Origin: Comamonas antarctica
Lineage (GTDB): Bacteria; Pseudomonadota; Gammaproteobacteria; Burkholderiales; Burkholderiaceae_C
DNA: 64,000 nt
Assembly: GCF_013363755.1 (NCBI RefSeq)
Contig: NZ_CP054840.1
Span: 4,062,001-4,126,000 of the forward strand
Direction of reading: 5' to 3'
The notes below the pieces were generated by a model, which did not search any database, was not told the DNA's origin, and was given only the letters and a program-made list of their open reading frames with translations. The translations under genes were made by a program, and so were the position numbers. This document shows positions 19,363 to 45,871 of this stretch, piece by piece (position 1 is the stretch's first letter; each line of letters begins with the position of its first letter).

Positions 19363-19405
19363 CAAGCCTACTGCCCTGTGGACATGTGGATAACTACGGT
19401 GCTTG

Positions 19406-19426
19406 ACCTTCTCATGGTGTTAAGGT
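19406..19426 (+). promoter_or_regulatory. CueR-type operator for copZ-cueR
   Basis: ACCTTCTCATGGTGTTAAGGT: the same 21-bp dyad with ACCTT/AAGGT arms, overlapped by a TTGACC -35 element at 19404-19409. It faces the copZ gene, so copA and copZ-cueR should respond together to copper. Confidence 0.8.
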
Positions 19427-19483
19427 TCATCATGGCTTCCATGGCGCATCGGGCGCCAAAAGTTATCCACAGGAATGAGCGCT

Positions 19484-19678
19484 ATGCAACATGTATTTGA
19501 AGTCCAGGGAATGACCTGCGGCCACTGCGAAAAGGCCGTGACCCAAGCCGTGCAACGCATCGATGCCCACGCCAGCGTGCAGATCGATCGCGGCCAGAAC
19601 CGCGTGGTGGTCGACAGCAGCGCAGACCCGGCGGCGCTGCGGGCCGCGATCGAGGAAGAAGGCTACCAGGTGGCTTGA
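19484..19678 (+). CDS. copZ: Copper chaperone CopZ
   Basis: A 64-residue heavy-metal-associated protein that carries Cu(I) in the cytoplasm to CopA. The metal motif GMTCGHC lies at about residues 8-14, followed by the ferredoxin-like pattern EKAVTQAVQRIDAHASVQID and a C-terminal LRAAIEEEGYQVA. ATG 19484 is preferred because AGGA at 19471-19474 is then spaced nine bases away; an ATG at 19475 directly abuts that AGGA. It is downstream of its own CueR-type operator, and cueR follows 53 bases later. Confidence 0.93.
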   Translation: MQHVFEVQGMTCGHCEKAVTQAVQRIDAHASVQIDRGQNRVVVDSSADPAALRAAIEEEGYQVA

Positions 19679-19731
19679 GCGCCACGCCAATGGCCACAAG
19701 CATTTCACATCTTCCCAGCAGAGTTATCCAC

Positions 19732-20166
19732 ATGCCGTCAACACTGTCATCCACACCGCAATGGCCGGTGGCCATTGGCGAAGCGGCGCGCCGCGCGGGC
19801 GTGTCGGCGCGCATGCTGCGCCACTACGAAGGCCTGGGCCTGCTGGCGCGCGTGGCGCGCAGCGACAGCGGCTACCGCCAATACAGCGAAGCCGATGTGC
19901 ATGTGCTGCGCTTCATCCGCCGCAGCCGCGACCTGGGGTTCTCGATCGAGGAAATCACCACCCTGCTGGGCCTGTGGCAGGACCAGGAGCGCACCAGCGC
20001 CAGCGTCAAGCAGATTGCCCAGGCGCATATCGACACCCTGTCCGAGCGCATCGCCGCGATGCAGGCCATGCAGCGCAGCCTGCAGTCGCTGGTGCAGTGC
20101 TGCCATGGCGACGACCGGCCGGATTGCCCGATATTGGACGATCTGGCGGCCGCGGATGAAGTGTGA
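19732..20166 (+). CDS. cueR: Copper-responsive MerR-family regulator CueR
   Basis: A 144-residue MerR-family activator that twists copA and copZ promoters when it binds Cu(I). The winged helix is AIGEAARRAGVSARMLRHYEGLGLL (about residues 12-36), then a dimerisation coiled coil, and a C-terminal metal loop CCHGDDRPDCPIL with the two cysteines spaced as in CueR (Cys-x7-Cys), which separates it from mercury or lead regulators. ATG 19732 is chosen; the frame is open further upstream into copZ but without a ribosome site. It probably belongs to a copZ-cueR transcript and controls both operators upstream. Confidence 0.92.
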   Translation: MPSTLSSTPQWPVAIGEAARRAGVSARMLRHYEGLGLLARVARSDSGYRQYSEADVHVLRFIRRSRDLGFSIEEITTLLGLWQDQERTSASVKQIAQAHIDTLSERIAAMQAMQRSLQSLVQCCHGDDRPDCPILDDLAAADEV

Positions 20167-31499: not shown

Positions 31500-32075
31500 A
31501 TGCATTTGAAAATCAGCCGGCGTTTCGTCAACACATGGGCTGCCGGCGCTCTGTGCCTGGCAAGCTGGGGCACCCAGGCCCAGCCCGTCTTCAACGACCA
31601 TTCCCCGAGCTGGTATGCCCAGGCCGCGGTTGCGAGCAATGATGCCTATACCGCCAGCCTGGGCGCGACGCTGCCCTGGCGCCAGTGGACATATGCGCTG
31701 GGTTCTGGCCAAGTCACCGGCCACTGGGACCTGTTTGCCAGCTACTGGTCAAGCCGCATGGCGAATGATGACCGGCAACGCAACTATGTCTTCGGCGTTG
31801 TGCCAACGTTGCGCTGGCGTGGCGACCAGGGGCAATCGCCCTGGTTTGCCCAGGTGGGCAGTGGCTTGTCACTTGCCACCGAACTCTATCAATCGGGCGA
31901 CAAGCGCTTCAGCACGCGCTACAACTTTGCCACGCATCTGGCTGTCGGCACCAACTTCGGTGCCCAGCGCGAACACGAACTGATGCTGCGCCTCGAGCAT
32001 TACTCCAATGCCGGCATCAAAAAGCCCAATCCCGGAGAGAACTTCCTGCAGCTGCGCTACGCCAGGAAATTTTGA
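31500..32075 (+). CDS. pagL: Lipid A 3-O-deacylase PagL
   Basis: A 191-residue outer-membrane beta-barrel that removes the 3-O acyl chain of lipid A. Signal peptide (residues 1-27, cleavage after GTQAQ), then short alternating barrel strands (WYAQAAVASNDAYTASLGATLPW and WDLFASYWSS). The catalytic site motif EHYSNAGI contains the His-Ser pair, about residues 164-171, and the protein ends in an aromatic residue (RKF), the barrel assembly signal. The order and spacing match PagL (E. coli itself lacks it; known in Salmonella and Bordetella). It ends just before the origin-like region, with a terminator 54 bases downstream. Confidence 0.88.
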   Translation: MHLKISRRFVNTWAAGALCLASWGTQAQPVFNDHSPSWYAQAAVASNDAYTASLGATLPWRQWTYALGSGQVTGHWDLFASYWSSRMANDDRQRNYVFGVVPTLRWRGDQGQSPWFAQVGSGLSLATELYQSGDKRFSTRYNFATHLAVGTNFGAQREHELMLRLEHYSNAGIKKPNPGENFLQLRYARKF

Positions 32076-32128
32076 CGCAAGCAAGTTATCCACAGCGGTA
32101 GCCGCAAAAACGGAAATCGCTGACGAAC

Positions 32129-32154
32129 AACCGCCCGCCAGGGCGGTTTTTTTT
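32129..32154 (+). terminator. Intrinsic terminator after pagL
   Basis: Stem CCGCCC / GGGCGG with loop GCCA and a tail of eight T. It separates pagL transcription from the origin-like region. Confidence 0.9.
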
Positions 32155-32326
32155 GGGCTTTTCACCCTGTGGATAAACCTGTTCTCAAAAACTGCATATC
32201 TTTTGACTTATCCACAAGATGCCCGGTGACCGGAAAGTTATGCCCAAAACGCCTGCAGCAGCAACCGCCCTTGGACCACATGCTTTGCGTCAACGCAAGC
32301 CGTTGATATACAAGGAAAATCATGAG

Positions 32327-32364
32327 TTATCCACAATATTCCTCGGCTTCTACTACTACGACTA
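32327..32364 (+). other. Unwinding module 1: DnaA box plus DnaA-trio-like tract
   Basis: DnaA box at 32327-32335, 12-bp spacer, then TTCTACTACTACGACTA at 32348-32364, whose complement reads as repeated 3'-GAT-5' trinucleotides (DnaA-trios). TTTAAAAATAG follows, suited to melting. Confidence 0.8.
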
Positions 32365-32609
32365 TTTAAAAATAGAACTACTAGGAACAACAACCGCGCG
32401 CAAATTTTGGGCAGCATCGCGGCGGCACATGAACAACCCATCCCATGCTTTCAGCCGAAATCCAAGAAGGAAAAATGAACACATGCATCGCAAGCCACTG
32501 GAAATTCATCCTGCAAAAAAGTTGTTCACTATTAATTTAGTAGCAAGAAACTGTTGTTATACCTAGCAATTCATGCCTTATCTGTGTAAAAAACAACATA
32601 CACAAAGCT

Positions 32610-32676
32610 TGTGGATATCTAAATATCAAGCGTTTGCTTATCCACAGGAAGCTCAATTCGGTGGAAGTTATCCACT
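32610..32676. other. DnaA boxes around an IHF consensus site
   Basis: Reverse box TGTGGATAT (32610-32618), IHF-like TATCAAGCGTTTG (32624-32636), forward TTATCCACA (32638-32646) and TTATCCACT (32668-32676). A bend between boxes would bring them together, as in other gamma/beta-proteobacterial origins. Confidence 0.7.
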
Positions 32677-32756
32677 TTTGGCGTACATCCGGAACATGGC
32701 TTCACGCACAGGCTTGAGAAATGCGCAACCCATTGAGTTGACACAGGAAAGTCAGG

Positions 32757-32794
32757 TTATCCACAGCGGCGGCCGGGTTCTACTACTACGACTA
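32757..32794 (+). other. Unwinding module 2: DnaA box plus DnaA-trio-like tract
   Basis: DnaA box at 32757-32765, a 12-bp all-GC spacer (GCGGCGGCCGGG), then the same 17-bp TTCTACTACTACGACTA at 32778-32794, followed by AATTTTTCCTAG. The GC-rich spacer followed by the trio-like tract matches the published basal unwinding layout best. Confidence 0.85.
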
Positions 32795-32800
32795 ATTTTT

Positions 32801-33542
32801 CCTAGTGAAATAAATGAACAACCAGGAGCGCAGTCGGGACAACCCCGGGAAACGGGTAATCCAGGCAAATCCGTCTTGCATCCAGAAGCGAAAAGGCGCA
32901 AAGTTCGAAGCTCGAAACGGTCATCCGGCAGAAAAACGCGGGCCTGCACGGAGAAAACGCGAAGAATTGGGGAAAACCGTTGTGGCGAGCACTGGAAACG
33001 CATGGTTGTCCACAAGTTGTTTCAAAACTTGTGGAAATAGCCGCCGCAGCGCTGCGCAAAACGGCTAAGTTGTTGATTTCGTTGATTGTTCAAATTATTT
33101 CAACGCGCCGTCATGGTTTCCGGGTTTGTGGTAACCCGGTTACATCACTGGGCGTCCAGGTGCAATGGCGTTCATGCGGTCGTCTGTGCAGAGGAAAACG
33201 AAGCCGATCAGCCCAGGCAGGCATGGGCCGGCACAGCGCTTTTGGGCAAAAGCGCGAAGCAAGGAGACAAGAGGCTGCCGTGACATCTGCCAGGCGCGCT
33301 GAAAGCCTCAGGAAGGGCTTGTGTGGTCGTCAAGCACCCTGAGGGTCAGGAAGACGGTTGGAAGGCCTGGAAGGCTTCCTGAGGTGCCATGCGGCCACGC
33401 TTGCGTTGCATGGGTGCAGTGCAACGGGAACGCACGGCAAATGCGCCTGGGATGGCTTGATGCCGCGTCCGAGGTGCTTGCACGACCGGGACACGCGCAG
33501 CGGCAGTCAGGACGCGTCGTATGCCGGATATCGCCACCGAAC
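32801..33542. other. Gene-free stretch right of the origin-like region
   Basis: No convincing gene, repeat or RNA is seen. A few weaker boxes occur (TTGTCCACA at 33006, one mismatch). Short open frames here lack family features and ribosome sites. The base composition drifts back to GC-rich toward the dinG end. Confidence 0.6.
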
Positions 33543-35705
33543 CTACCGGGGCAGCCGCTTTTCAAGCGCAAACGGCGGCAGGCCATTGAGCAGCCGCTGG
33601 CCGTAGCTGGTGCGCACCAGACGCTTGTCGTAACAGTAGACGAATGCGCGGTCTTCCTCGGTGCGGATGGCGCGGCCGACCCACTGTGCCAGGCGGATGG
33701 CCGTGGCTGGCACCACCAGTTCGCTGAACGGGTCCCTGCCGGCGCTGCGCAGCCATTCCGCCCGGGCCTCACCCACAGGATCGTCAGGCGGCGCAAAGGG
33801 CAGCTTGGTGATGAACAGCGACTCGCACAGTGCCCCCGGAAGGTCGAGGCCTTCGCCGAAAGACTGCATGCCAAAGATGATCGACGGCTGGCCGTTGGCG
33901 ACCCGCTCGCGGTGCAGCGACAGCAACTGGGCCCGCGGCATGGCCGTCTGCACCAGCACACTGGCGCGCATGGCAGTGGAAAGGGCATCGACCGCCTGGC
34001 GCATCTGCTCGCGCGAGGTGAACAGCACCAGTGCGCCAGACTCGACACGTGCCAGGTCGTGCAGCAGCGCATCGACCATCTCGACGGTGAAGGCACTTGC
34101 CTGGCGCGGATCGGCATGCGTCTCGGCGGCCACGAAGATGCCCTGGGCGGAATAGTCAAATGGGCTGGGCACTTCCAGCGTGGTCACCGCAGCATCGCCA
34201 TGCAGGCCCGACTCGCGCAGGAAGAAGTCGAATTGTCCACAGCTTGTGAGTGTCGCGGAAGTCAGCACGGCACCCCGCACCTGCGACCACAGATGGCGGC
34301 GCAAAGTGGCTCCCGGGAGCAGCGGGCTGGCATGCGCCTTGACCACGATGAATTCGCCATCTGTCTCCAACGTGAACCATTTTGCGTTGGGAACATACTG
34401 TTTGTCGTCATCTTCCGAGGGCTGCTGCAACAGTAACTGGGCAGTGTCATAGACTGCTTCCAGCCTCGGAGCCAGTGCGCCGACCTGTGCGTACATTGTG
34501 GATAACCTGCGCGCTTCTTCCGGTTTGTCGCGGATCTCGGCACGCAGCGCCTTGGAGATCGCACGCAGCGCATCGAGAAACCCGTTGGCATGGTGCGAGG
34601 CCTGGGCCAGTGGCTCGAGCAGCGCTTCGGGCAGGATGCCGCGCGCTGCCCGCACGCGTGCCGGACCCCAGCTGTCGCGCTGCGACTTGAGTTCGTCGCC
34701 ATAGAAATCCATGACCAGCCGGGCCAGATCCTGCAGCGTCTGGCGCAGGTGGCCGGAGTGGCCAGGCACATCGGCGATCTCTTCGACTTCCAGCAGCGTG
34801 CCCACGCGCAGCGCGCGGCTCGCGAGCTTGTCGATCCAGCCCAGGCGGCTCAGGTCCAGTGCGCACGCAAACTGGGCCAGCGCGGTGGCCGGGAGGTGGT
34901 GGGCTTCATCCAGGACCAGCAGGCAGTTGTCCAGTTCGGGCAGAAGGCGTGCGCCCAGCGAGGACAGCAGCAGATCGTGGTTGGCGACGATGACCTGGGC
35001 CGCGACCATCGACTTGCGGCGCTCGTAATAGGTACAGCTGTCGAAAGTCGGGCAGTGCTTGCCGGTGCAGGAACTGGACTCTGCCGCCACCGGGCTCCAG
35101 GCTTCGGGTTCGGGCGGAGTCGCGAGCGAGTCGCGGTCGCCGTCCCAGACGCCGGTGGCCATCGCATCGGCCATGCTGGCATAGAACTGCATGCGCGCCT
35201 GCAACTCCTGCGCGGGACGCGCGCGCGCCGCGGCTTCTTCCTCGGCAAACAGATCGTCGCCTTCGTCATGCGCTTCGCCCGTGCCGGCAAGACGCTCCAG
35301 CTTGAGCTTGCAGACAAACCGCCCACGGCCCTTGGCCAGCGCGAACTTGAACGGTTGCTCGAGTTGCGCGGCCAACGCCGGCAGGTCCTTGTTGACCAGC
35401 TGTTCCTGCAAGGCCACGGTGGCCGTAGAAATCAGCACGCGCGTGCCGCGCGCCAGCGCCAACGTGATCGCCGGAATGCTGTAGGCCAGGGATTTTCCAA
35501 CCCCCGTACCCGCCTGGACCACGGCAATGGCGCGTTCGGGCGCTTCGGCATCGTCGTCGACCTTGCCGAGCTGAGCCGCACTGAACGTGGCCGCGACCTG
35601 GCCCGCCATGCGCCGCTGGCCCTCGCGGCTGCGGAACCCGGGGATGGATGCGACGACATCATCAAACGATTCAAGGCCCAACTGGGCCCACTTTTGCTGA
35701 GACAT
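33543..35705 (-). CDS. dinG: ATP-dependent DNA helicase DinG
   Basis: A 720-residue superfamily 2 XPD-like 5'-3' helicase that resolves R-loops and G-quadruplex-type structures. Walker A AGTGVGKS is near residue 65, four cysteines of the 4Fe-4S cluster are present (RFVCKLKLE near 150, then CTGKHC and SCTYYERR near 215-230), DEAHH box near residue 265, and the C-terminal helicase lobe ends with RLAQWVGRAIRTEEDRAF near residue 670. It is flanked on both sides by DnaA-box-bearing gaps. One perfect DnaA box (34497-34505) and one near box (34233) lie inside the gene. It is transcribed toward the origin-like region. Confidence 0.95.
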   Translation of the reverse strand: MSQQKWAQLGLESFDDVVASIPGFRSREGQRRMAGQVAATFSAAQLGKVDDDAEAPERAIAVVQAGTGVGKSLAYSIPAITLALARGTRVLISTATVALQEQLVNKDLPALAAQLEQPFKFALAKGRGRFVCKLKLERLAGTGEAHDEGDDLFAEEEAAARARPAQELQARMQFYASMADAMATGVWDGDRDSLATPPEPEAWSPVAAESSSCTGKHCPTFDSCTYYERRKSMVAAQVIVANHDLLLSSLGARLLPELDNCLLVLDEAHHLPATALAQFACALDLSRLGWIDKLASRALRVGTLLEVEEIADVPGHSGHLRQTLQDLARLVMDFYGDELKSQRDSWGPARVRAARGILPEALLEPLAQASHHANGFLDALRAISKALRAEIRDKPEEARRLSTMYAQVGALAPRLEAVYDTAQLLLQQPSEDDDKQYVPNAKWFTLETDGEFIVVKAHASPLLPGATLRRHLWSQVRGAVLTSATLTSCGQFDFFLRESGLHGDAAVTTLEVPSPFDYSAQGIFVAAETHADPRQASAFTVEMVDALLHDLARVESGALVLFTSREQMRQAVDALSTAMRASVLVQTAMPRAQLLSLHRERVANGQPSIIFGMQSFGEGLDLPGALCESLFITKLPFAPPDDPVGEARAEWLRSAGRDPFSELVVPATAIRLAQWVGRAIRTEEDRAFVYCYDKRLVRTSYGQRLLNGLPPFALEKRLPR

Positions 35706-36658
35706 TGAGAGCGAAATGGGCCGCCGCTTCAGGCGGCAGCAGAGATTAATAAGAAATAAAACACTGATATGTATTGAATAAGATGTTAAATCTTATGTTT
35801 TTTGCCTTACATATCGTGTTTGGAAGCGATGTGAAACATGGGTTTTCAGCCTTCCACGGCGTATTGCTGTGTATTTTCGCAGGTCTGGGAATTCTGTGGA
35901 TAAGCGCGGATAAGTTTTATGCGGCGCCGGGAGGTTTGCATTTATCCACAGGCTGAGTGGCGAAGACCGGGGCTCAAGCGCTGTGCATATCCCTGTGGGC
36001 AGGCCTATGGATCTGCGGTGTATTCATGGAAAAAACCGTTTGACGACAGTCGCATGGATCACCTGTACACAGATTGTCCAGAATCGCCGTTGGAATCGGC
36101 ACGCCGTGCAGATGATGGCTCTGCTGTCTTATCCACAGCAGGCAAGGCGCCCGGCAGGGCCAGCCTGTGCATAGCAATGCGTGCGACTTGAGGCGCTGCG
36201 CATTGGCGCAAGGTCCTGTCAGCGTCATGGGGGCGACTGGACATGATTGCTTAAAAAACAAGCAAAAAAACGGCGATTGCGCTGTTTCCCATATCAGTGG
36301 GGCGCCTGTTTTCCTAAAAAATCGCTGCTCTTGCTATCCAATTAATAGCAATAGGTACATGCGAGTTAAGGGTAAACACCCGAAAATGATGAAAACGATG
36401 GCTCGAACCGTTCTTTCGTCGCGTGAACCCCTGTCAAAGCGCTTTGTAATTTTTCATATCTTCGCCAATGGCCCTTAGGGCAGCATTCCCAAAGCTGTCG
36501 GCGCATTGCAACAAAGTGTTAGCGCAAGGCGTTTCTATGACAAATTAACCGTTGGATTCCCGTTTCCATCGTCCTGGCCTGCGCTGCGCCATCGATAGGC
36601 TGGCGCAACGTCTTGTATCTGCAATGCAACCGGTAAAAGCGTCAACAAGGCCCTTCAC
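35706..36658. other. 953-bp gene-free gap with three perfect DnaA boxes
   Basis: TTATCCACA occurs at 35942 and 36129 (forward) and as its complement at 35895. The first 120 bases and the segment 36240-36480 are AT-rich. It should contain promoters for dinG (minus) and the GGDEF gene (plus), but no clear promoter, terminator or repeat can be assigned. Short open frames here are not supported. Confidence 0.7.
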
Positions 36659-38269: not shown

Positions 38270-41200
38270 ATGAAAAAGCGCGTCGCAATCATAGGTCTAT
38301 CCTTTAGATTCCCCAGTACCAATACCGACCAATACTGGACAGACCTGCTCGACGGGCGTGATCTGGTGACCGAGGTCGAATCCTCGCGATGGGCCAAGGA
38401 CGGTTTTCTTCACCCCGACAAGAACCATCCCGGCAGCAGCTACACGTTTGCCGCCGGTTCGGTCGGTGATGTTTCCCTGTTCGATGCCGGTTTCTTCGGC
38501 ATCTCGCCGCGCGAAGCCGCGCTGATGGACCCGCAGCAGCGCCTGCTGCTCGAAATGAGCTGGGAAGCGCTTGAAAACGCGGGCATCAAGCCGTCGACGC
38601 TGCGCGGCAGCCAGTGCGGCGTGTTCATCGGCATTGCCAGCGCCGACTATGCCTACCGCCTGTCGGAAGACCTGTCCGCCATCGACTCCTCGGTGGCCAC
38701 GGGCAATACCGCGAGCATTGCCGCCAACCGCATTTCCTATGTGCTCGACCTGCAGGGCCCGAGCATGGCCATCGACACCGCCTGTTCCTCGTCGATGGTG
38801 GCCTTCCACCAGGCCTGCCGTTCCATCGTGACGGGTGAAACCACCCAGGCGCTGGCCGGCGGGGTCAGCCTGCATCTGCATCCCTACGGCTTCATCACCT
38901 TCTCCAAGGCCACGATGCTGTCCAAGCGCGGCCGCTGCAACGTGTTCGATGCCGCGGGCGACGGCTACGTACGCTCCGAAGGCGGCGGCATGTTCGTGCT
39001 CAAGGACTATGACCAGGCGGTGGCCGATGGCGACCAGATCCTGGCCGTCGTCGCCAACACCGCGGTCAATACCGACGGCCGCAAGACCGGCCTTACGGTG
39101 CCCAGCCCCAAGGTGCAGTCGGCGTTGCTGCAGCGGGCCTACAGCCAGGCCGGCATCGACCCGGCGGAAATCGACTATGTCGAGGCGCACGGCACCGGCA
39201 CGGCGGTGGGCGATCCGATCGAGGCGCGCGCCATTGGCGATGCGCTGGGCAAGCGCCGTCCCAAGGACAAGCCGCTGCTGATCGGCTCGGTCAAGAGCAA
39301 CATGGGCCACCTGGAGGCCGCTTCGGGCATTGCGGGGCTGGTCAAGGCCCTGCATTGCATCCAGCATCGCGTGGTACCGGCCACGATCGGCATCAAGACG
39401 CTGAACCCTAAGATCGAGTTCGACGACTGGAACATCGAGGTTGCCACCGAAGCGCGCGCGCTCAAGCCCACGGGCAAGCTGATTGTCGGCATCAACTCGT
39501 TTGGCTTTGGCGGCGCCAATGCCCACGTCATTCTGGAAAGCCATGAACCGGCACCCGTGCCGGCGCACGAGATTCCGGTCGGCGCGCCGGCGCCGTTCAT
39601 CGTGTCGGGCAAGGACACGGCGGCGCTGAAGGCTGCGGCACGCGAATTTGCCGACTTCGTGCAGGAACAACCGGCAACGGCGCTCTACGACATTGCATAC
39701 AACGCGGCTTTCCGCCGCGAGCGCCATGATCACTGCGCCGTGGTCGAAGGCGCGAGCGCCGTTGCCGTGGCACAGGCGCTGCGCGACTTCGCCGACGATG
39801 CATCGACCTCCACGCAGGTGGAATCGGGCACGGCGCTGGCCAAGGCCCAGGGTCCGGTGTTCATCTACTCGGGCAATGGCTCGCAGTGGGCCGGAATGGG
39901 CAAGCGCCTGCTCGAGGAGTCGCCCGTATTCAAGGCGGCAATTCAGCAGGTCGATGCAATCTTCCGCCGCCATTCGCCCGACTCGCTGGAAGCCGAACTC
40001 GCGGGCCGCAATGGCGACGGCCGCTATGAATTCACCGAAGTCGCGCAGCCGGCGCTGTTTGCGCTGCAGGTCGGCGTGACGCAGATGTTGCGCCACCGCG
40101 GTGTGGCACCCGTGGCCGTGGCCGGCCACAGCGTGGGCGAGGTCGCTGCGGCCTGGGCTTCGGGCGCATTGAGCCTGGAAGACGCGGTCGAAGTGATCTT
40201 CCAGCGCAGCCGCCTGCAGGGCACGACCAAGGGCAAGGGCGAGATGACCGCCGTGGGCCTGGGCCATGCGGCCGCCGAGGCCGTGCTGGCAGAACTGGCG
40301 CTGGCGCCGGGCGTGGTCATTGCCGGCATGAACAGCTCGCGCGGCGTGACCGTTGCCGGCGACCCGGCCTTGCTGACCCAGCTCGAAGCGGTGCTGACCC
40401 AGCGCGGCGTGTTCAACCGCCGGCTGGCGCTGGACTACGCCTTCCACAGTCCGGCAATGGACGAGATCGAAGCCGGAGTGCGTGCCACGCTGGCGGGCTT
40501 GAAGCCCGGCGCCACGCGCGTGCCGTTCTACTCCACCGTGAGCGGCGCGCTGCTCGACGGCACGGCGCTCGATGCCGAGTACTGGTGGCACAACATCCGC
40601 CAGCCGGTGCTGTTCGAGCAGGCCATGCAGCAGATTCTCGCCACCGGTGCGAACGTGTTCATCGAGGTCGGCCCGCATGCCGTGCTGCGCAGCTACATCA
40701 ACGACTGCCTCAAGGACCAGTCGGCCGAGGGCCGGGTCATTGCCACGCTGGCGCGCGGCGACGATTCCGCCCAGCGCGTCTGGGGCGCAAGCGCCCAGGC
40801 ACTGATCAGCGGCGTCGACATCGACTGGCAGCAGCTGTTCCCCACCGTCGGCAACTTCGTGCAGCTGCCGTACTACCCGTGGCAGCGCGAGCGCCACTGG
40901 CATCCGGTCACGGCGCAGTCGCTGGGATTGCTCGACCGGCACAAGGTCCATCCGCTGCTGGGCTACGCGCTGCAGCAGCAGGTGCTGACCTGGGAGAACC
41001 AGCTCGACACCCGGCGCATCCCGATGCTGGCCGACCACGTGGTGGGCGACACCATCATCTTCCCCGGCACCGGCTTTGGCGAACTTGCGCTGGCCGCGGC
41101 GCTGCTGTGGCAGCCGGGCACGCTGGCCGAGGTCGAAGAGCTCGAGATCCGCGCGCCGCTGCTGCTGAGCGAGAGCAGCGCCAAGATCGTGCGCGTGGCC

Positions 41201-44200
41201 ATCGATCCCCAGGACGGCAGCCTGACGGTGAAGGGCCGCGAGGTCGGCAGCACCGACCCATGGACGCTGCACACCGTCGGCCGCATCCTGCGCGAACCCC
41301 GCGACGGCCTGCTGCGCCAGGATGCGCCGGTGCTGCCCACGCGCCAGCCCGACTTCAGCGGCGCCAGCCACGCGGCGCTGACCGAAGCCGCGGGCCTGGG
41401 CTATGGCCCGGCGTTCCAGTGCATCGACTTCGGCTGGGTCGATGGCGGCTCGGCCCTGGCGGTGCTGAAGATGCCGCAAAGCATCGAGGCCGAACTGGCG
41501 CAGACCCATCTGCATCCCGCTGTGCTGGACTGCACCTTCCAGCTGATCATCCAGCTGCTCAAGGACGACATGGGCGTGCATGAGGGCGTGACCTTCATCC
41601 CCACCAAGATGGGCCGCATCAGCTTCCGCGCCAGCCAGGCCCAGCCGGGCTTCGCGCGCGTCACGCTGCTGCGCCGCACGGCGCATTCGCTGAGCGCCGA
41701 ATTCACCGTGTTCGACACCGAAGGCGTGCCGATCGCCACCGTCAAGGAAGCGCGCTTTCGCAGCATCCGTCTGAGCAAGAACGCGGCCGACCGGCTGCGC
41801 TTCCTCGACTACCACGGCATTCCGCAGCCGCACCCGCTGGCCGCCGCCGCGGCCCCGGCCATTGCATTTGAAAGCGTGCATGCCGCGCTGGCCGAACTGG
41901 CCCGGCGCTCGGCGCTCACCGGCTCGCTGCGCCGCTATTGCGAGGAGGTCGACCCTCTGCTCGACAGCTTGTGCAGCCGCTATACCCGCGAGGCCCTGCA
42001 GCGCCTGTCGGCCGACGGCCGCACGCTGCCGCAGCAGCAAGTGCTGGCGCTGCAATCCGCCCATCCCGAGATCGCGCCGTTCCTCGCGCATCTGCTGCTG
42101 CTGGCCGGCGACGACCAGGCCGTGGTGCAGACCGACGCCGGCTGGGAGCTGGTGCCGGGCGATGAGGACCAGGCTTCGGCCGAAGACATCTGGAACAGCC
42201 TCGTTGCGGACTATCCCGACTACTTCCAGATCGTGCATTCGGTCGGCCGCATCGGCATGCACCTGTCCGAGCTGCTCGACGGCAGCGTGACGCTGGACAA
42301 GGTCTGCCCGCGCGAGACCTCGCTGGTCACGCTGCTGCGCCAGGCACTGGGCGCGCGCAGCAAGCAGCGCATCGGCCACACGCTGCAGGAGCTGATTGCG
42401 CAGGGCCTGCGCGAGCTGCCCGAAGGCCAGCGCCTGCGCATCGTCGAAGTCAGCGAAGGCGCGCCCTCGTTTGCGCTGGATGCCTGCCTGGGCCTCGATG
42501 CAGACCGCGCCGACTATGCGTTTGCCACGACCTCCTCGGCCACGCTCGAGGAAGTCGCGCGGCTGCAGGAGCAGTTCCCGCACATCGATGCGCGCCTGAT
42601 CGGCGGCGCGGCGGGCGCGGCGCCCGTGTCCGGCTGCCAGCTGGCCATCGTCACGCTGGACTTCGGCACCGTGGCCGAGGCCGTGGCCGCGCTGGAATAT
42701 GCGCGTTCGTGCCTGGCGCCCGGCGGCTCGCTGATCGTTGCCGGCCAGCATGGCGCGCGCTGGGTCGACTTCGTGTTCGGCGCGCAGCGCCAGCACTGGT
42801 CGCTGCTGGAAAACGGCAGCTGGATGTCCAGCCAGCGCACGCTGCAGTTCTGGCAGCAGCAGCTCCAGCAGCTGGGCTTTGCCGGCACCGACCTGTTCGA
42901 GCTGTCGCCCGACACCTTGTCCGGCCCCTATCTGCTGCTGGCGCAGCAAGCCAAGCCCGCGCAGCAGCCGGCAGCAAGCACCAAGCGCGCGCCGCGCAGC
43001 TGGATCCTGCTGGCCGATGAGAAGGGCGTTTCGGCGCAATTGTCCGACCAGCTGGTCAAGCAGCTGCAGGCGCGCGGCGACATGGTCGTGCAGGCCGGCC
43101 CGGGCGACACCGCGGCCATTGAAACCCTGCTGCGCACCACCACCGCCAGCTACGGCAAGCTGGACGGCATCGTGCACCTGGCCGGCATTGCCAGCCCGGC
43201 GACCGAAGCCGAGGCGGTGCTGGAGCAGCAGGTCGCGCGCTGCGCGCTGGCTGCGGCCATCGTCCAGGCCTGCGAGGCCACGTCGACCAACACCACCTGC
43301 TGGCTCGTGACCCAGGCGGGCGCCAGCGACATGCTGCCCCATGCCACGGCCACGCCGGTGCAGGATGCGGCGCTGTGGGGCTTCGGCCGCACGCTGATCA
43401 ACGAAGCCTCGGACTGCGCCGTGCGCCTGGTCGACATCGAGAGCACCCAGGCGCTGGACAGCGTCGTCGCCGCGCTGGCCCAGGAGCTCGAGCAGCCCGA
43501 CGCCGAGCAGGAAGTGATTCTGACGCGCGCCGGTGCGCGCTATGTGCCGCGCCTGCGCCTCGAGGAGCGCCCGCAGGTGCGCCAGGAGATCGATTCGCCG
43601 ACCATCCGCCTGGCCTTCCAGTACCCGGGCCAGCTGCGCAACCTGCGCTGGGAAGCGCACCCGCGCGCCGTGCTGGGCCAGGGCGAGATCGAGGTCGACG
43701 TGCGCGCCACGGGCCTCAACTTCCGCGACGTGATGTATGCGCTGGGCCTGCTGTCCGACGAAGCCATCGAGAACGGTTTCGCGGGCCCGACCCTGGGCCT
43801 GGAGTTCTCGGGCGTGGTGACTGCCGTGGCCGACCCGGACTGCGGCTATGCGCCCGGCGACCTGGTCGTGGGCTTCGGCCCGTCGAGCTTCGGCAACCGC
43901 GTGGTCACCCAGGCCAGCGCGATCTCGCTGATCCCGCCCGAAATCTCGCTCGAGGCCGCGGCCACGATTCCCAGCACCTTCTTCACCGTCTACTACGCGC
44001 TGCACCACCTCGCGCGCCTGCAGCCCGGCGAGAAGGTGCTGATCCACGGCGCGGCCGGCGGCGTGGGCATTGCCGCGATCCAGCTGGCCAAGTGGATAGG
44101 CGCCGAGATCTACGTCACGGCCGGCTCGGACGAGAAGCGCGACTTCCTGCGCCAGCAGGGCATCGACCACATCTACGACTCGCGCAGCCTGGCGTTTGCC

Positions 44201-45871
44201 GACGACATCCTGGCCGCGACCGGCGGCAAGGGCGTGGACGTGGTGCTGAACTCGCTCGCGGGCGAGGCCATCAACCGCAACTTCCGCGTGCTCAAGCCCT
44301 TCGGCCGCTTCCTCGAACTGGGCAAGCGCGACTTCTACGAGAACACCAAGATCGGCCTGCGCCCGTTCCGCAACAACATCAGCTACTTCGGCATCGATGC
44401 CGACCAGCTGATGCAGTCGCGCCCCGAGCTCACGCGCAGCCTGTTCGCGGAAATGATGACGTTGTTCACCGAAGGCGTGCTGCACCCGCTGCCCTACCAT
44501 GTGTTCGACGCCAACGACATCGTCGAGGCGTTCCGCTACATGCAGCAGGCGCGCCAGATCGGCAAGATCGTCGTCACCTACAACAACGCCATCGGCCAGA
44601 TCCACACGCCCGCGCCCACGGCCGCCAAGCCACTGGAAATCGCGGCCGACGGCAGCTACCTGGTGACCGGCGGCCTGGGCGGCTTCGGCCTGCGCACGGC
44701 CGAATGGCTCGCCAGCAAGGGTGCGCGCCACCTGCTGCTGATCAGCCGCAGCGGCCCGAGCGCCGACGCCGCGAAGCAGGCGATTGCACGCCTGGAGCAG
44801 CAAGGCGTCACGGTGCATGCCGCGGCCTGCGACATCACCGACCGCCAGGCGCTCGCGGCGCTGCTGGCCGAAACCGCCAAGACCATGCCGCCGCTGAAGG
44901 GCATCGTGCATGCGGCGACGGTCATCAACGACGGTCTGATCCGCAACATGGATGCCGCGCAGATCCGCAGCGTGCTGGCTCCCAAGGCCATGGGCGCGCA
45001 GCACCTGCACGAGCTGACGCTGGAGACGGCGCTGGACTTCTTCGTGATGTTCTCCTCGGCCACCACGCTGTTCGGCAACCCGGGCCAGGGCAATTACGTG
45101 GCGGCCAATGCCTGCCTCGAAGCACTGGCCAAGTACCGCCGCGCCAACAGCCTGGCCGCGACCTGCGTGCGCTGGGGCGCGATCGACGACGTCGGTTTCC
45201 TCGCGCGCAACGAGAAGATCAAGGACGCGCTGCAGGGCCGCATGGGCGGCTCGGCGCTGAACTCGACCATCGCGCTCGACGCGCTGGAAAGCCTGCTGAC
45301 CACCGGCCAGTCGGGCCTGGGCATCATGGAACTGGACTGGAAGGCGCTCGCGCGTTTCCTGCCCAGCGCCGGCAGCCCCAAGTTCAGCGAACTGGCGCGC
45401 GATGCGATGGACAACGACGGCGACGAGGAGGATTCGGGCGACATCCAGCGCGTGCTGGCCGAACTCTCCGATGCCGAGTTGCAGACCACGCTGACCGACA
45501 TGATCAAGGCCGAGGTCGGCGAGATCCTGCGCGTGTCGCCCGACAAGATCGACCCGAATCGCTCGATCTACGACATGGGCCTGGACTCGCTGATGGGCGT
45601 CGAGCTGGTGGTGGCGCTGGAAGGCCGTTTCGGCATTCAGCTGTCGGTCATGGCACTGAGCCAGAGCCCGACCATCACCAAGCTGGCCGAACGCATCGGC
45701 CTGCAGCTCAAGGGCAGCGACGAGGCAGGCGCCGCGCCGGCCGAAAGCCAGGTGCTGGCGCAGACCAGGCAATTGATGGCGCAGCATGGCTCCGACGTCT
45801 CGGCGGAGTCCGTTGCCAGCCTGGCGCAGGACATTGAATCTCAAGGCACGGCCGCAAGGATGATCCACTAA
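38270..45871 (+). CDS. Reducing type I polyketide synthase, RkpA-like (capsule lipid synthesis)
   Basis: A 2,533-residue multidomain enzyme. Order: ketosynthase (1-430; DTACSSSM near 165, HGTGT and NMGHLEAASG); acyltransferase (520-830; GHSVGEVAAAW near 618); dehydratase (905-1180; DHVVGDTIIFPG near 922, LHPAVLDCTF near 1080); a degenerate methyltransferase-like part (1210-1560; IVEVSEGAPS where a glycine-rich SAM motif is expected); a structural ketoreductase half (1573-1760); enoylreductase (1780-2110; HGAAGGVGIAAIQLAK); ketoreductase (2125-2330; TGGLGGFG, GNYVAANA); carrier domain (Ser in GLDSLMG, near 2438). No thioesterase. Length and order match rhizobial RkpA, so it should build a long saturated acyl chain. 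TAATG joins it to the next gene. Confidence 0.9.
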   Translation: MKKRVAIIGLSFRFPSTNTDQYWTDLLDGRDLVTEVESSRWAKDGFLHPDKNHPGSSYTFAAGSVGDVSLFDAGFFGISPREAALMDPQQRLLLEMSWEALENAGIKPSTLRGSQCGVFIGIASADYAYRLSEDLSAIDSSVATGNTASIAANRISYVLDLQGPSMAIDTACSSSMVAFHQACRSIVTGETTQALAGGVSLHLHPYGFITFSKATMLSKRGRCNVFDAAGDGYVRSEGGGMFVLKDYDQAVADGDQILAVVANTAVNTDGRKTGLTVPSPKVQSALLQRAYSQAGIDPAEIDYVEAHGTGTAVGDPIEARAIGDALGKRRPKDKPLLIGSVKSNMGHLEAASGIAGLVKALHCIQHRVVPATIGIKTLNPKIEFDDWNIEVATEARALKPTGKLIVGINSFGFGGANAHVILESHEPAPVPAHEIPVGAPAPFIVSGKDTAALKAAAREFADFVQEQPATALYDIAYNAAFRRERHDHCAVVEGASAVAVAQALRDFADDASTSTQVESGTALAKAQGPVFIYSGNGSQWAGMGKRLLEESPVFKAAIQQVDAIFRRHSPDSLEAELAGRNGDGRYEFTEVAQPALFALQVGVTQMLRHRGVAPVAVAGHSVGEVAAAWASGALSLEDAVEVIFQRSRLQGTTKGKGEMTAVGLGHAAAEAVLAELALAPGVVIAGMNSSRGVTVAGDPALLTQLEAVLTQRGVFNRRLALDYAFHSPAMDEIEAGVRATLAGLKPGATRVPFYSTVSGALLDGTALDAEYWWHNIRQPVLFEQAMQQILATGANVFIEVGPHAVLRSYINDCLKDQSAEGRVIATLARGDDSAQRVWGASAQALISGVDIDWQQLFPTVGNFVQLPYYPWQRERHWHPVTAQSLGLLDRHKVHPLLGYALQQQVLTWENQLDTRRIPMLADHVVGDTIIFPGTGFGELALAAALLWQPGTLAEVEELEIRAPLLLSESSAKIVRVAIDPQDGSLTVKGREVGSTDPWTLHTVGRILREPRDGLLRQDAPVLPTRQPDFSGASHAALTEAAGLGYGPAFQCIDFGWVDGGSALAVLKMPQSIEAELAQTHLHPAVLDCTFQLIIQLLKDDMGVHEGVTFIPTKMGRISFRASQAQPGFARVTLLRRTAHSLSAEFTVFDTEGVPIATVKEARFRSIRLSKNAADRLRFLDYHGIPQPHPLAAAAAPAIAFESVHAALAELARRSALTGSLRRYCEEVDPLLDSLCSRYTREALQRLSADGRTLPQQQVLALQSAHPEIAPFLAHLLLLAGDDQAVVQTDAGWELVPGDEDQASAEDIWNSLVADYPDYFQIVHSVGRIGMHLSELLDGSVTLDKVCPRETSLVTLLRQALGARSKQRIGHTLQELIAQGLRELPEGQRLRIVEVSEGAPSFALDACLGLDADRADYAFATTSSATLEEVARLQEQFPHIDARLIGGAAGAAPVSGCQLAIVTLDFGTVAEAVAALEYARSCLAPGGSLIVAGQHGARWVDFVFGAQRQHWSLLENGSWMSSQRTLQFWQQQLQQLGFAGTDLFELSPDTLSGPYLLLAQQAKPAQQPAASTKRAPRSWILLADEKGVSAQLSDQLVKQLQARGDMVVQAGPGDTAAIETLLRTTTASYGKLDGIVHLAGIASPATEAEAVLEQQVARCALAAAIVQACEATSTNTTCWLVTQAGASDMLPHATATPVQDAALWGFGRTLINEASDCAVRLVDIESTQALDSVVAALAQELEQPDAEQEVILTRAGARYVPRLRLEERPQVRQEIDSPTIRLAFQYPGQLRNLRWEAHPRAVLGQGEIEVDVRATGLNFRDVMYALGLLSDEAIENGFAGPTLGLEFSGVVTAVADPDCGYAPGDLVVGFGPSSFGNRVVTQASAISLIPPEISLEAAATIPSTFFTVYYALHHLARLQPGEKVLIHGAAGGVGIAAIQLAKWIGAEIYVTAGSDEKRDFLRQQGIDHIYDSRSLAFADDILAATGGKGVDVVLNSLAGEAINRNFRVLKPFGRFLELGKRDFYENTKIGLRPFRNNISYFGIDADQLMQSRPELTRSLFAEMMTLFTEGVLHPLPYHVFDANDIVEAFRYMQQARQIGKIVVTYNNAIGQIHTPAPTAAKPLEIAADGSYLVTGGLGGFGLRTAEWLASKGARHLLLISRSGPSADAAKQAIARLEQQGVTVHAAACDITDRQALAALLAETAKTMPPLKGIVHAATVINDGLIRNMDAAQIRSVLAPKAMGAQHLHELTLETALDFFVMFSSATTLFGNPGQGNYVAANACLEALAKYRRANSLAATCVRWGAIDDVGFLARNEKIKDALQGRMGGSALNSTIALDALESLLTTGQSGLGIMELDWKALARFLPSAGSPKFSELARDAMDNDGDEEDSGDIQRVLAELSDAELQTTLTDMIKAEVGEILRVSPDKIDPNRSIYDMGLDSLMGVELVVALEGRFGIQLSVMALSQSPTITKLAERIGLQLKGSDEAGAAPAESQVLAQTRQLMAQHGSDVSAESVASLAQDIESQGTAARMIH

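Follow-up and report, generated by a model that had tools for sequence, protein, structure and literature searches.

A candidate replication origin with two tandem DnaA-trio units in Comamonas antarctica and its relatives

Does the intergenic region between pagL and dinG in Comamonas antarctica serve as the chromosomal origin of replication, and what would two complete copies of an unwinding sequence do there? The region lies in a stretch of 64,000 nucleotides (the window; C1:4,062,001-4,126,000 of an assembly of 5.03 Mb in three contigs, genome label G000), for which an initial annotation had proposed an oriC with two tandem unwinding modules. The basal unwinding system (BUS) to which these modules were likened consists of a DnaA box, a spacer and repeated DnaA-trios, as outlined for Bacillus subtilis and others (PMC8287927; PMC6669920).

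Anatomy of the two units

The candidate is flanked by pagL, encoding a lipid A 3-O-deacylase (31500..32075, + strand; PF09411, E=6e-32), and by a dinG-type helicase gene (33543..35705, - strand; PF13307 and PF06733) on the side to which the trios point. The placement beside pagL and dinG, and away from dnaA, is thus as initially described; dnaA lies about 113 kb away, taking the contig C1 as a closed circle. Perfect TTATCCACA boxes start at 32086(+), 32168(-), 32208(+), 32327(+), 32638(+) and 32757(+), and boxes with one mismatch at 32610(-) and 32668(+), which are exactly the six perfect and two near-perfect boxes in 0.7 kb counted before. The combination TTATCCACA-N12-TTCTACTACTACGACTA is present twice on the same strand, 430 bp apart. 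The 17-mer TTCTACTACTACGACTA has exactly two occurrences in the window, both on the + strand, and their starts at 32348 and 32778, each 12 bp past a perfect box, agree with the first description in every detail.

A module had been described as a box with a trio tract. Both parts are present, but the duplicated unit is longer, about 230 bp, and also takes in an inverted box, a box at -119, a weak box and an IHF-like site. We refer to the tandem copies as unit A, on the pagL side, and unit B, on the dinG side. Counted from the main box (0), each holds an inverted box (-159 in A, -147 in B), a box (-119), a weak box (-89), an IHF-like site (-31) and five DnaA-trios. These internal offsets are fixed across 38 distinct paired loci, that is, pairs inside the fetched stretches after removal of identical sequences.

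Unit A begins with a perfect inverted box at 32168..32176 (- strand, offset -159), and 37 of the 38 paired loci have an inverted box at -158/-159. The perfect box at 32208..32216 (+, offset -119) corresponds to a + box at -117 to -119 in all 38. It is followed by the weak box-like TTATGCCCA, with two mismatches, at 32238..32246 (+, offset -89), within the conserved element AAGTTRTCCC that is common to both units near -92. The IHF consensus WATCAANNNNTTR, reported initially between two of the boxes, is indeed an exact match at 32296..32308 (- strand, where it reads TATCAACGGCTTG; offset -31). The main box of unit A is perfect (32327..32335, +, offset 0; at most one mismatch in 35/38 paired loci) and leads to the trio tract at 32348..32364 (+), whose bottom strand reads 3'-GAT GAT GAT GCT GAT-5'.

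Unit B repeats this order with an inverted box carrying one mismatch (32610..32618, -, offset -147; inverted box at -146/-147 in 34/38 paired loci), a perfect box (32638..32646, +, offset -119; + box at -118 to -120 in 37/38), the weak box TTATCCACT (32668..32676, +, offset -89), an IHF-like site with one mismatch at the same offset as in unit A (32726..32738, -, offset -31), a perfect main box (32757..32765, +, offset 0; at most one mismatch in 38/38) and a trio tract (32778..32794, +) that is identical to the 17-mer of unit A. The IHF-like site is kept better in unit A than in unit B: with up to one mismatch it is found in 34/34 A units (25 exact) vs 20/33 B units (4 exact). Upstream of unit A there is an extra box at 32086..32094 (+, offset -241), which some relatives have at -240/-241 (L030, L087, L090, L101, L109).

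Both trio tracts run into low-stability DNA of the kind expected at the unwinding region of an oriC. In unit A the AT-rich run spans 32365..32407, and the 60-mer from 32348 ranks within the lowest 0.9% of the window by stability (0.35% when 58-64 kb is left out); in unit B the run spans 32795..32837, and the 60-mer from 32778 falls in the least stable 1.6% (0.51% outside 58-64 kb). The AT-rich runs noted after each 17-mer are therefore real, but they are not the least stable DNA of the locus: its weakest 60-mer, at 32515, lies between the units and not at either trio tract. Small conserved islands were seen at about 32527-32546 and 33007-33026 (+200 and +680 from the unit A box), the latter overlapping TTGTCCACA at 33006.

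The oriC of Escherichia coli also has an IHF site near the box that borders the unwinding region and does not adjoin dnaA. The candidate resembles it in the IHF site near the main box and in the missing dnaA neighbor, and differs from it in that E. coli has a single unwinding region. A BUS calls for a box followed, within about 16 bp, by at least three trios. Here both units have five trios, the fourth being GCT, after a 14-bp spacer, and the bottom-strand pattern fits the published system as the initial annotation had suggested. The shared features are the box, the spacer (with a published peak around 10-13 bp), the 3'-GAT-5' repeats on one strand and the AT-rich run beyond, and the difference is that two complete copies are present in one origin (features of the system as outlined in PMC8287927).

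Position of the candidate origin in the chromosome

DnaA boxes are strongly concentrated around this region. With up to one mismatch there are 25 in the window vs a mean of 3.56 in shuffled sequences, about a 7-fold excess, and none of 100 shuffles reached 25. Of the 32 perfect boxes in the 5.03-Mb genome, 15 are in this 64-kb window; a reversed-pattern control gave 6 genome-wide. The cluster of 8 boxes (at most one mismatch) in 715 bp is what an oriC should show, and in the 847 kb of C1 scanned in 100-bp steps the locus has the highest density per 715-bp window, 7 vs 4 for the next best. In two complete congeners, G004 and G030, the same locus is the densest box region of the stretches scanned.

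Other box clusters were seen in the window. Three perfect boxes lie past the 5' end of dinG (35895-36137), and five boxes with up to one mismatch are near the same dinG end in G004 (21.5-22.0 kb) and G030 (29.1-29.5 kb); possibly this is a conserved satellite cluster or reflects control of dinG by DnaA. Three perfect boxes and one with a single mismatch at 19385-19755 surround small genes which, by reading alone, resemble those for a heavy-metal-binding protein and a MerR-type regulator. Searches with a 90-position profile built from 58 units, several of them from the genus, found no unit in these clusters (19.4-19.8 kb and 35.9-36.1 kb).

Loci of the datA/DARS type have DnaA boxes with an IHF site and lack an unwinding element. 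The boxes and the IHF site would equally suit a DnaA-titration or regulatory locus of that kind, which is not an origin. We give this reading a very slim chance, since the conserved trio tracts lead into low-stability DNA, two relatives have their sampled skew minimum here, and the scanned sequence holds no box cluster of higher density.

GC skew had been proposed as a check, and a minimum elsewhere, for example beside dnaA, as evidence against the locus. In G004 and G030, in sampled sequence at 4-kb steps, the minima are at 24.0 kb and 32.0 kb and the units at 24.8-25.3 kb and 32.6-33.1 kb, respectively; coverage was gap-free for about 140 kb either side of the contig start in G004, and the left side was sampled with gaps in G030. 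The genome under study behaved differently. Sampled 20-kb stretches of G000 had positive skew at 0.25-1.75 Mb and negative skew at 2.0-4.0 Mb, and cumulative skew reached a local minimum at the pair (4.095 Mb, -2320), with the lowest sampled value 40 kb away, at about 4.135 Mb (-2717). A displaced minimum is thus seen in weak form in G000 and not in the two congeners.

This lowest value would favor an active origin elsewhere, near 4.135 Mb or at dnaA. Gene order offers a partial explanation of the discrepancy. The window genes up to dinG (the rdgC-dinG neighborhood) show synteny with 22-42 kb of G004 and 30-59 kb of G030, and open reading frames from 36 kb onward are unmatched in the fetched stretches of these genomes, except for one gene region at 48 kb whose match is at least about 100 kb away from the pair. 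Because frames past 36 kb showed no counterpart beside the pair in the stretches fetched from G004 and G030, genes appear to have been inserted between the origin and dnaA, and window DNA at 36000-64000 is probably added DNA. Leaving out the blocks at 4.100-4.125 Mb, a subtraction for which the synteny comparison reached 4.126 Mb, brings the 4.135 Mb value to -2265 and moves the minimum to 4.095 Mb by a thin margin. A gene read as that of a large polyketide synthase (38270-45871) and the AT-rich DNA at 58-64 kb were not found near the pair in the fetched G004 and G030 stretches.

The dnaA side was considered as well. At its start C1 adjoins the 3' end of dnaA, and its far end holds dnaN and gyrB (the latter two named by reading the sequence); C1 is therefore most probably a single circle opened between dnaA and dnaN. 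The dnaA-rpmH gap has one perfect box and one with a single mismatch, the profile found no unit in this gap, and no perfect box occurs from 36.1 kb of the window to 4.171 Mb of C1. These observations, together with the unmatched genes past 36 kb, make an origin at dnaA or near 4.135 Mb very improbable in our view.

A partial unit-like sequence was seen between dnaN and gyrB (L027, C1:4205513-4205554), a box followed by TTTACTACC with E=0.0015. It is perhaps a relic of a dnaA-side origin, as other families show weak matches 1.4-1.7 kb from the contig start, where those contigs are assumed to start at dnaA. DnaA-family matches besides dnaA also exist in the genome; our guess is that these are IstB-type helper genes.

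The locus is very probably the chromosomal oriC. Skew in two congeners, synteny and the conservation of both modules give comparative support to the proposed origin with two tandem unwinding modules, at which melting is predicted.

Occurrence, conservation and age of the pair

Are two units a peculiarity of this genome? Whole-region BLAST was too insensitive for this question (12/61 genomes, including its own) and was replaced by a spaced pattern, TTDTCMACA-N15-TACTAYKAC, then by the profile. The spaced pattern was found in 40 of 53 genomes of the genus set, which holds Comamonas and Delftia species, and twice in 26 of these 40; in the family it was found in 99/399 genomes, and the reversed-pattern control gave 0 matches in both sets. 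It had been suggested to look for both 17-mers in related genomes. The paired pattern is widely kept: with two mismatches allowed, a same-strand pair 392-439 bp apart is present in 39/53 genus genomes (the reversed control also matches at this tolerance, up to 5 times per genome, at positions that were not listed).

The profile identified at least one unit in 52/53 genus genomes and at least two in 44/53, with the second copy in G067 being partial and several genus units matching by construction because the profile was built from them; nine of the 53 have fewer than two. Whole-genome counts over 250 family genomes gave a single unit in 145 and at least two in 91, including 12 with three or more, for a total of 236 with a unit; none was detected in 14. 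Several of the multi-unit genomes have their copies on different contigs or many kb apart. These numbers do not agree with the initial view that two-module origins are uncommon, as 44/53 congeneric genomes and 91/250 family genomes have at least two units somewhere. At the level of the order, 120/299 genomes gave a profile match, many of them weak. Genus, family and order counts all used stricter filters that lose weak matches, and completeness was at least 98% for family and at least 95% for order genomes. In family f8, two or three units were found in 9/10 genomes listed, which is not a rate because the listing omits some genomes without a match. Two partial matches each were seen in records named Massilia, Herbaspirillum and Janthinobacterium, and these names suggest that f8 is Oxalobacteraceae.

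Identical 17-mers in one genome could also be produced by a recent duplication or by coding sequence, and CTACTACTACGACTA could encode a Tyr-rich run. We give next to no weight to such an artefact. Spacings of 428, 429, 430, 437, 438 and 439 bp break a reading frame, and units A and B share only 46% identity over 275 bp in the genome of the window. Across genomes, identity is higher between A units (0.556) and between B units (0.522) than between A and B of one genome (0.443), in a comparison of 34 A and 33 B units that, like the IHF-site counts above, was made after five named loci and loci with short flanks were dropped. When 58 units were placed on a tree, the A/B labels could be explained by 6 changes (19.5 in shuffles), with 27/55 inner branches being weak and two B units (C. 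testosteroni and C. terrae) sitting among A units; the two kinds thus mostly group across species, each with its own orthologues. Conservation forms two plateaus, at -160 to +75 and +280 to +495, and is lower between them (32 loci, after dropping six named loci and those with short flanks). From the identities, the tree and the two plateaus, the identical 17-mers point to constraint on an old duplication and not to a recent copy. By these comparisons the units were duplicated long ago, and each copy is conserved.

The same anatomy can be recognized outside the genus. Among 103 units, an undercount because L222-L300 from the order level were pooled with the genus set that was excluded, 67 have a + box at -119/-118, and the positions of inverted boxes show maxima at -159 to -155 and -147 to -144. 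The inverted-box peak is independent of the search because the search model held the -119 box and not the inverted box.

Roles of the two units

Our preferred reading, with a probability of roughly 0.6, is that this oriC consists of two complete tandem units, either of which can nucleate initiation. If the known DnaA-trio mechanism applies to the computed anatomy, conserved in both units and located by skew in two relatives, then DnaA would load onto the boxes of each unit and IHF would introduce a bend some 25 bp away from the main box. A DnaA filament would be guided from the main box over the 14-bp spacer onto the five bottom-strand trios, and on these trios it would melt the adjacent AT-rich run. 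Binding of DnaA and IHF, melting and the independence of the units would all follow by analogy with that mechanism, and initiation from either unit would give the origin a built-in redundancy. The two units have the same orientation, so the opposite strand is not simply supplied by the second copy; a redundant origin, or one with a raised chance of initiating, is a more plausible reading than an origin with one unit for each fork.

Natural variants of the pair help to weigh the roles of its two halves. In G018, G031, G014 and G020 (L309-L312), unit A has kept its boxes without trios, and a complete unit B lies 348-349 bp away. These four related genomes have lost the upstream trios and retained the boxes, so two melting sites are not required. 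They agree with a reading in which unit B alone melts and unit A is an accessory array for loading DnaA, like the non-melting half of a bipartite origin; in C. difficile, a clear trio and melting were described in oriC2 only (PMC7561715, in the part available). For the candidate we regard this as unlikely, though worth keeping in mind, because the trio tract of unit A is recognizable in the 39/53 genus genomes with the pair and its IHF-like site is kept better than that of unit B. One tract can suffice, as the relatives without upstream trios show, and unit A may be mainly a loading array elsewhere too.

A further reading is that both units must open together, and that two bubbles separated by 430 bp join to form a single large one which takes both helicases. 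It would suit the narrow range of 392-439 bp seen in 39 genomes of the genus, the fact that both units are conserved, and the low-stability DNA between them, which includes the weakest 60-mer. We find it improbable, as spacing in the family varies from 372 bp to 3.3 kb (tree set) and is about 9 kb for G080 and G300, some genomes have just a single unit, and the trios are on the same strand in both units and so would not by themselves serve both strands. Helical phasing of the spacing, suggested by clusters near 418, 428 and 438 bp, was dropped because it fits neither the distance of 348-349 bp in the trio-less genomes nor the varied distances elsewhere.

The family also has wider arrangements of the units. 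Paenacidovorax caeni has two genes (Pfam Gate and LTXXQ) between its units. In G080 and G300, which belong to one genus, the units are those about 9 kb apart, and G080 has a third unit 20 kb further. Cumulative skew in these two genomes bottoms at the first unit and is near-flat to the second, in 8-kb steps with noise as large as the effect; this is as expected if the interval is copied in either direction and is suggestive only. Three f8 genomes (L305, L306 and L307) have three units each. In G374, the skew minimum of the fetched 60 kb is at 36 kb, near the unit at 37.2 kb and not those at 41.8 and 42.6 kb. Units of opposite orientation, about 0.4 kb to 20 kb apart, vs the tandem order here, were seen in G384, G234 and G317; those in G384 are about 20.5 kb apart, with the skew minimum at the edge of the fetched stretch. 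In L035 (G011; 1474-1534), a complete unit faces a trio-like tract on the opposite strand that has no DnaA box (up to one mismatch) before it.

Bipartite origins are known from B. subtilis, Helicobacter pylori and Clostridioides difficile, where dnaA splits the two halves and the unwinding region is in one half (PMC7561715, PMC8235120, as far as their available text describes). In common with these origins, the candidate has two DnaA-box clusters acting as one origin region. It differs in that both halves have trios and are 430 bp apart in one intergenic region, with dnaA about 113 kb off, so neither the split by dnaA nor the restriction of unwinding to one half applies; the four genomes of L309-L312 do fit the latter. 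A BUS survey may have passed over second copies, which would have gone unreported because the survey program is described as reducing almost all genomes to one candidate each (PMC8287927). Titles and abstract openings in the open-access collection searched gave, among the matches listed, no pointer to a two-unit architecture.

Ralstonia pickettii 12D belongs to the order Burkholderiales. Its entry among the putative double oriCs of Gao 2015 is a pair at hemE and dnaA, hundreds of kb apart (PMC4403523). The table has four entries with box clusters beside replication genes, which share with our candidate the presence of more than one origin-like element per chromosome and differ from it in that the available text makes no mention of trios (PMC4403523).

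A broader extension, that both units are independently active and that many chromosomes of the family have twin or triple origins, in some genera split by whole genes, is tentative and in our estimate rather doubtful. The findings bear on the working view of one initiation site per bacterial chromosome, and they suggest that a common architecture can stay hidden when a survey retains just one unwinding site for each genome. They also touch on two open questions, how two helicases are loaded at an origin and how much origin sequence is needed. A family with one, two or three units, together with its trio-less relatives, is a natural experiment on helicase loading and on the sequence that an origin needs.
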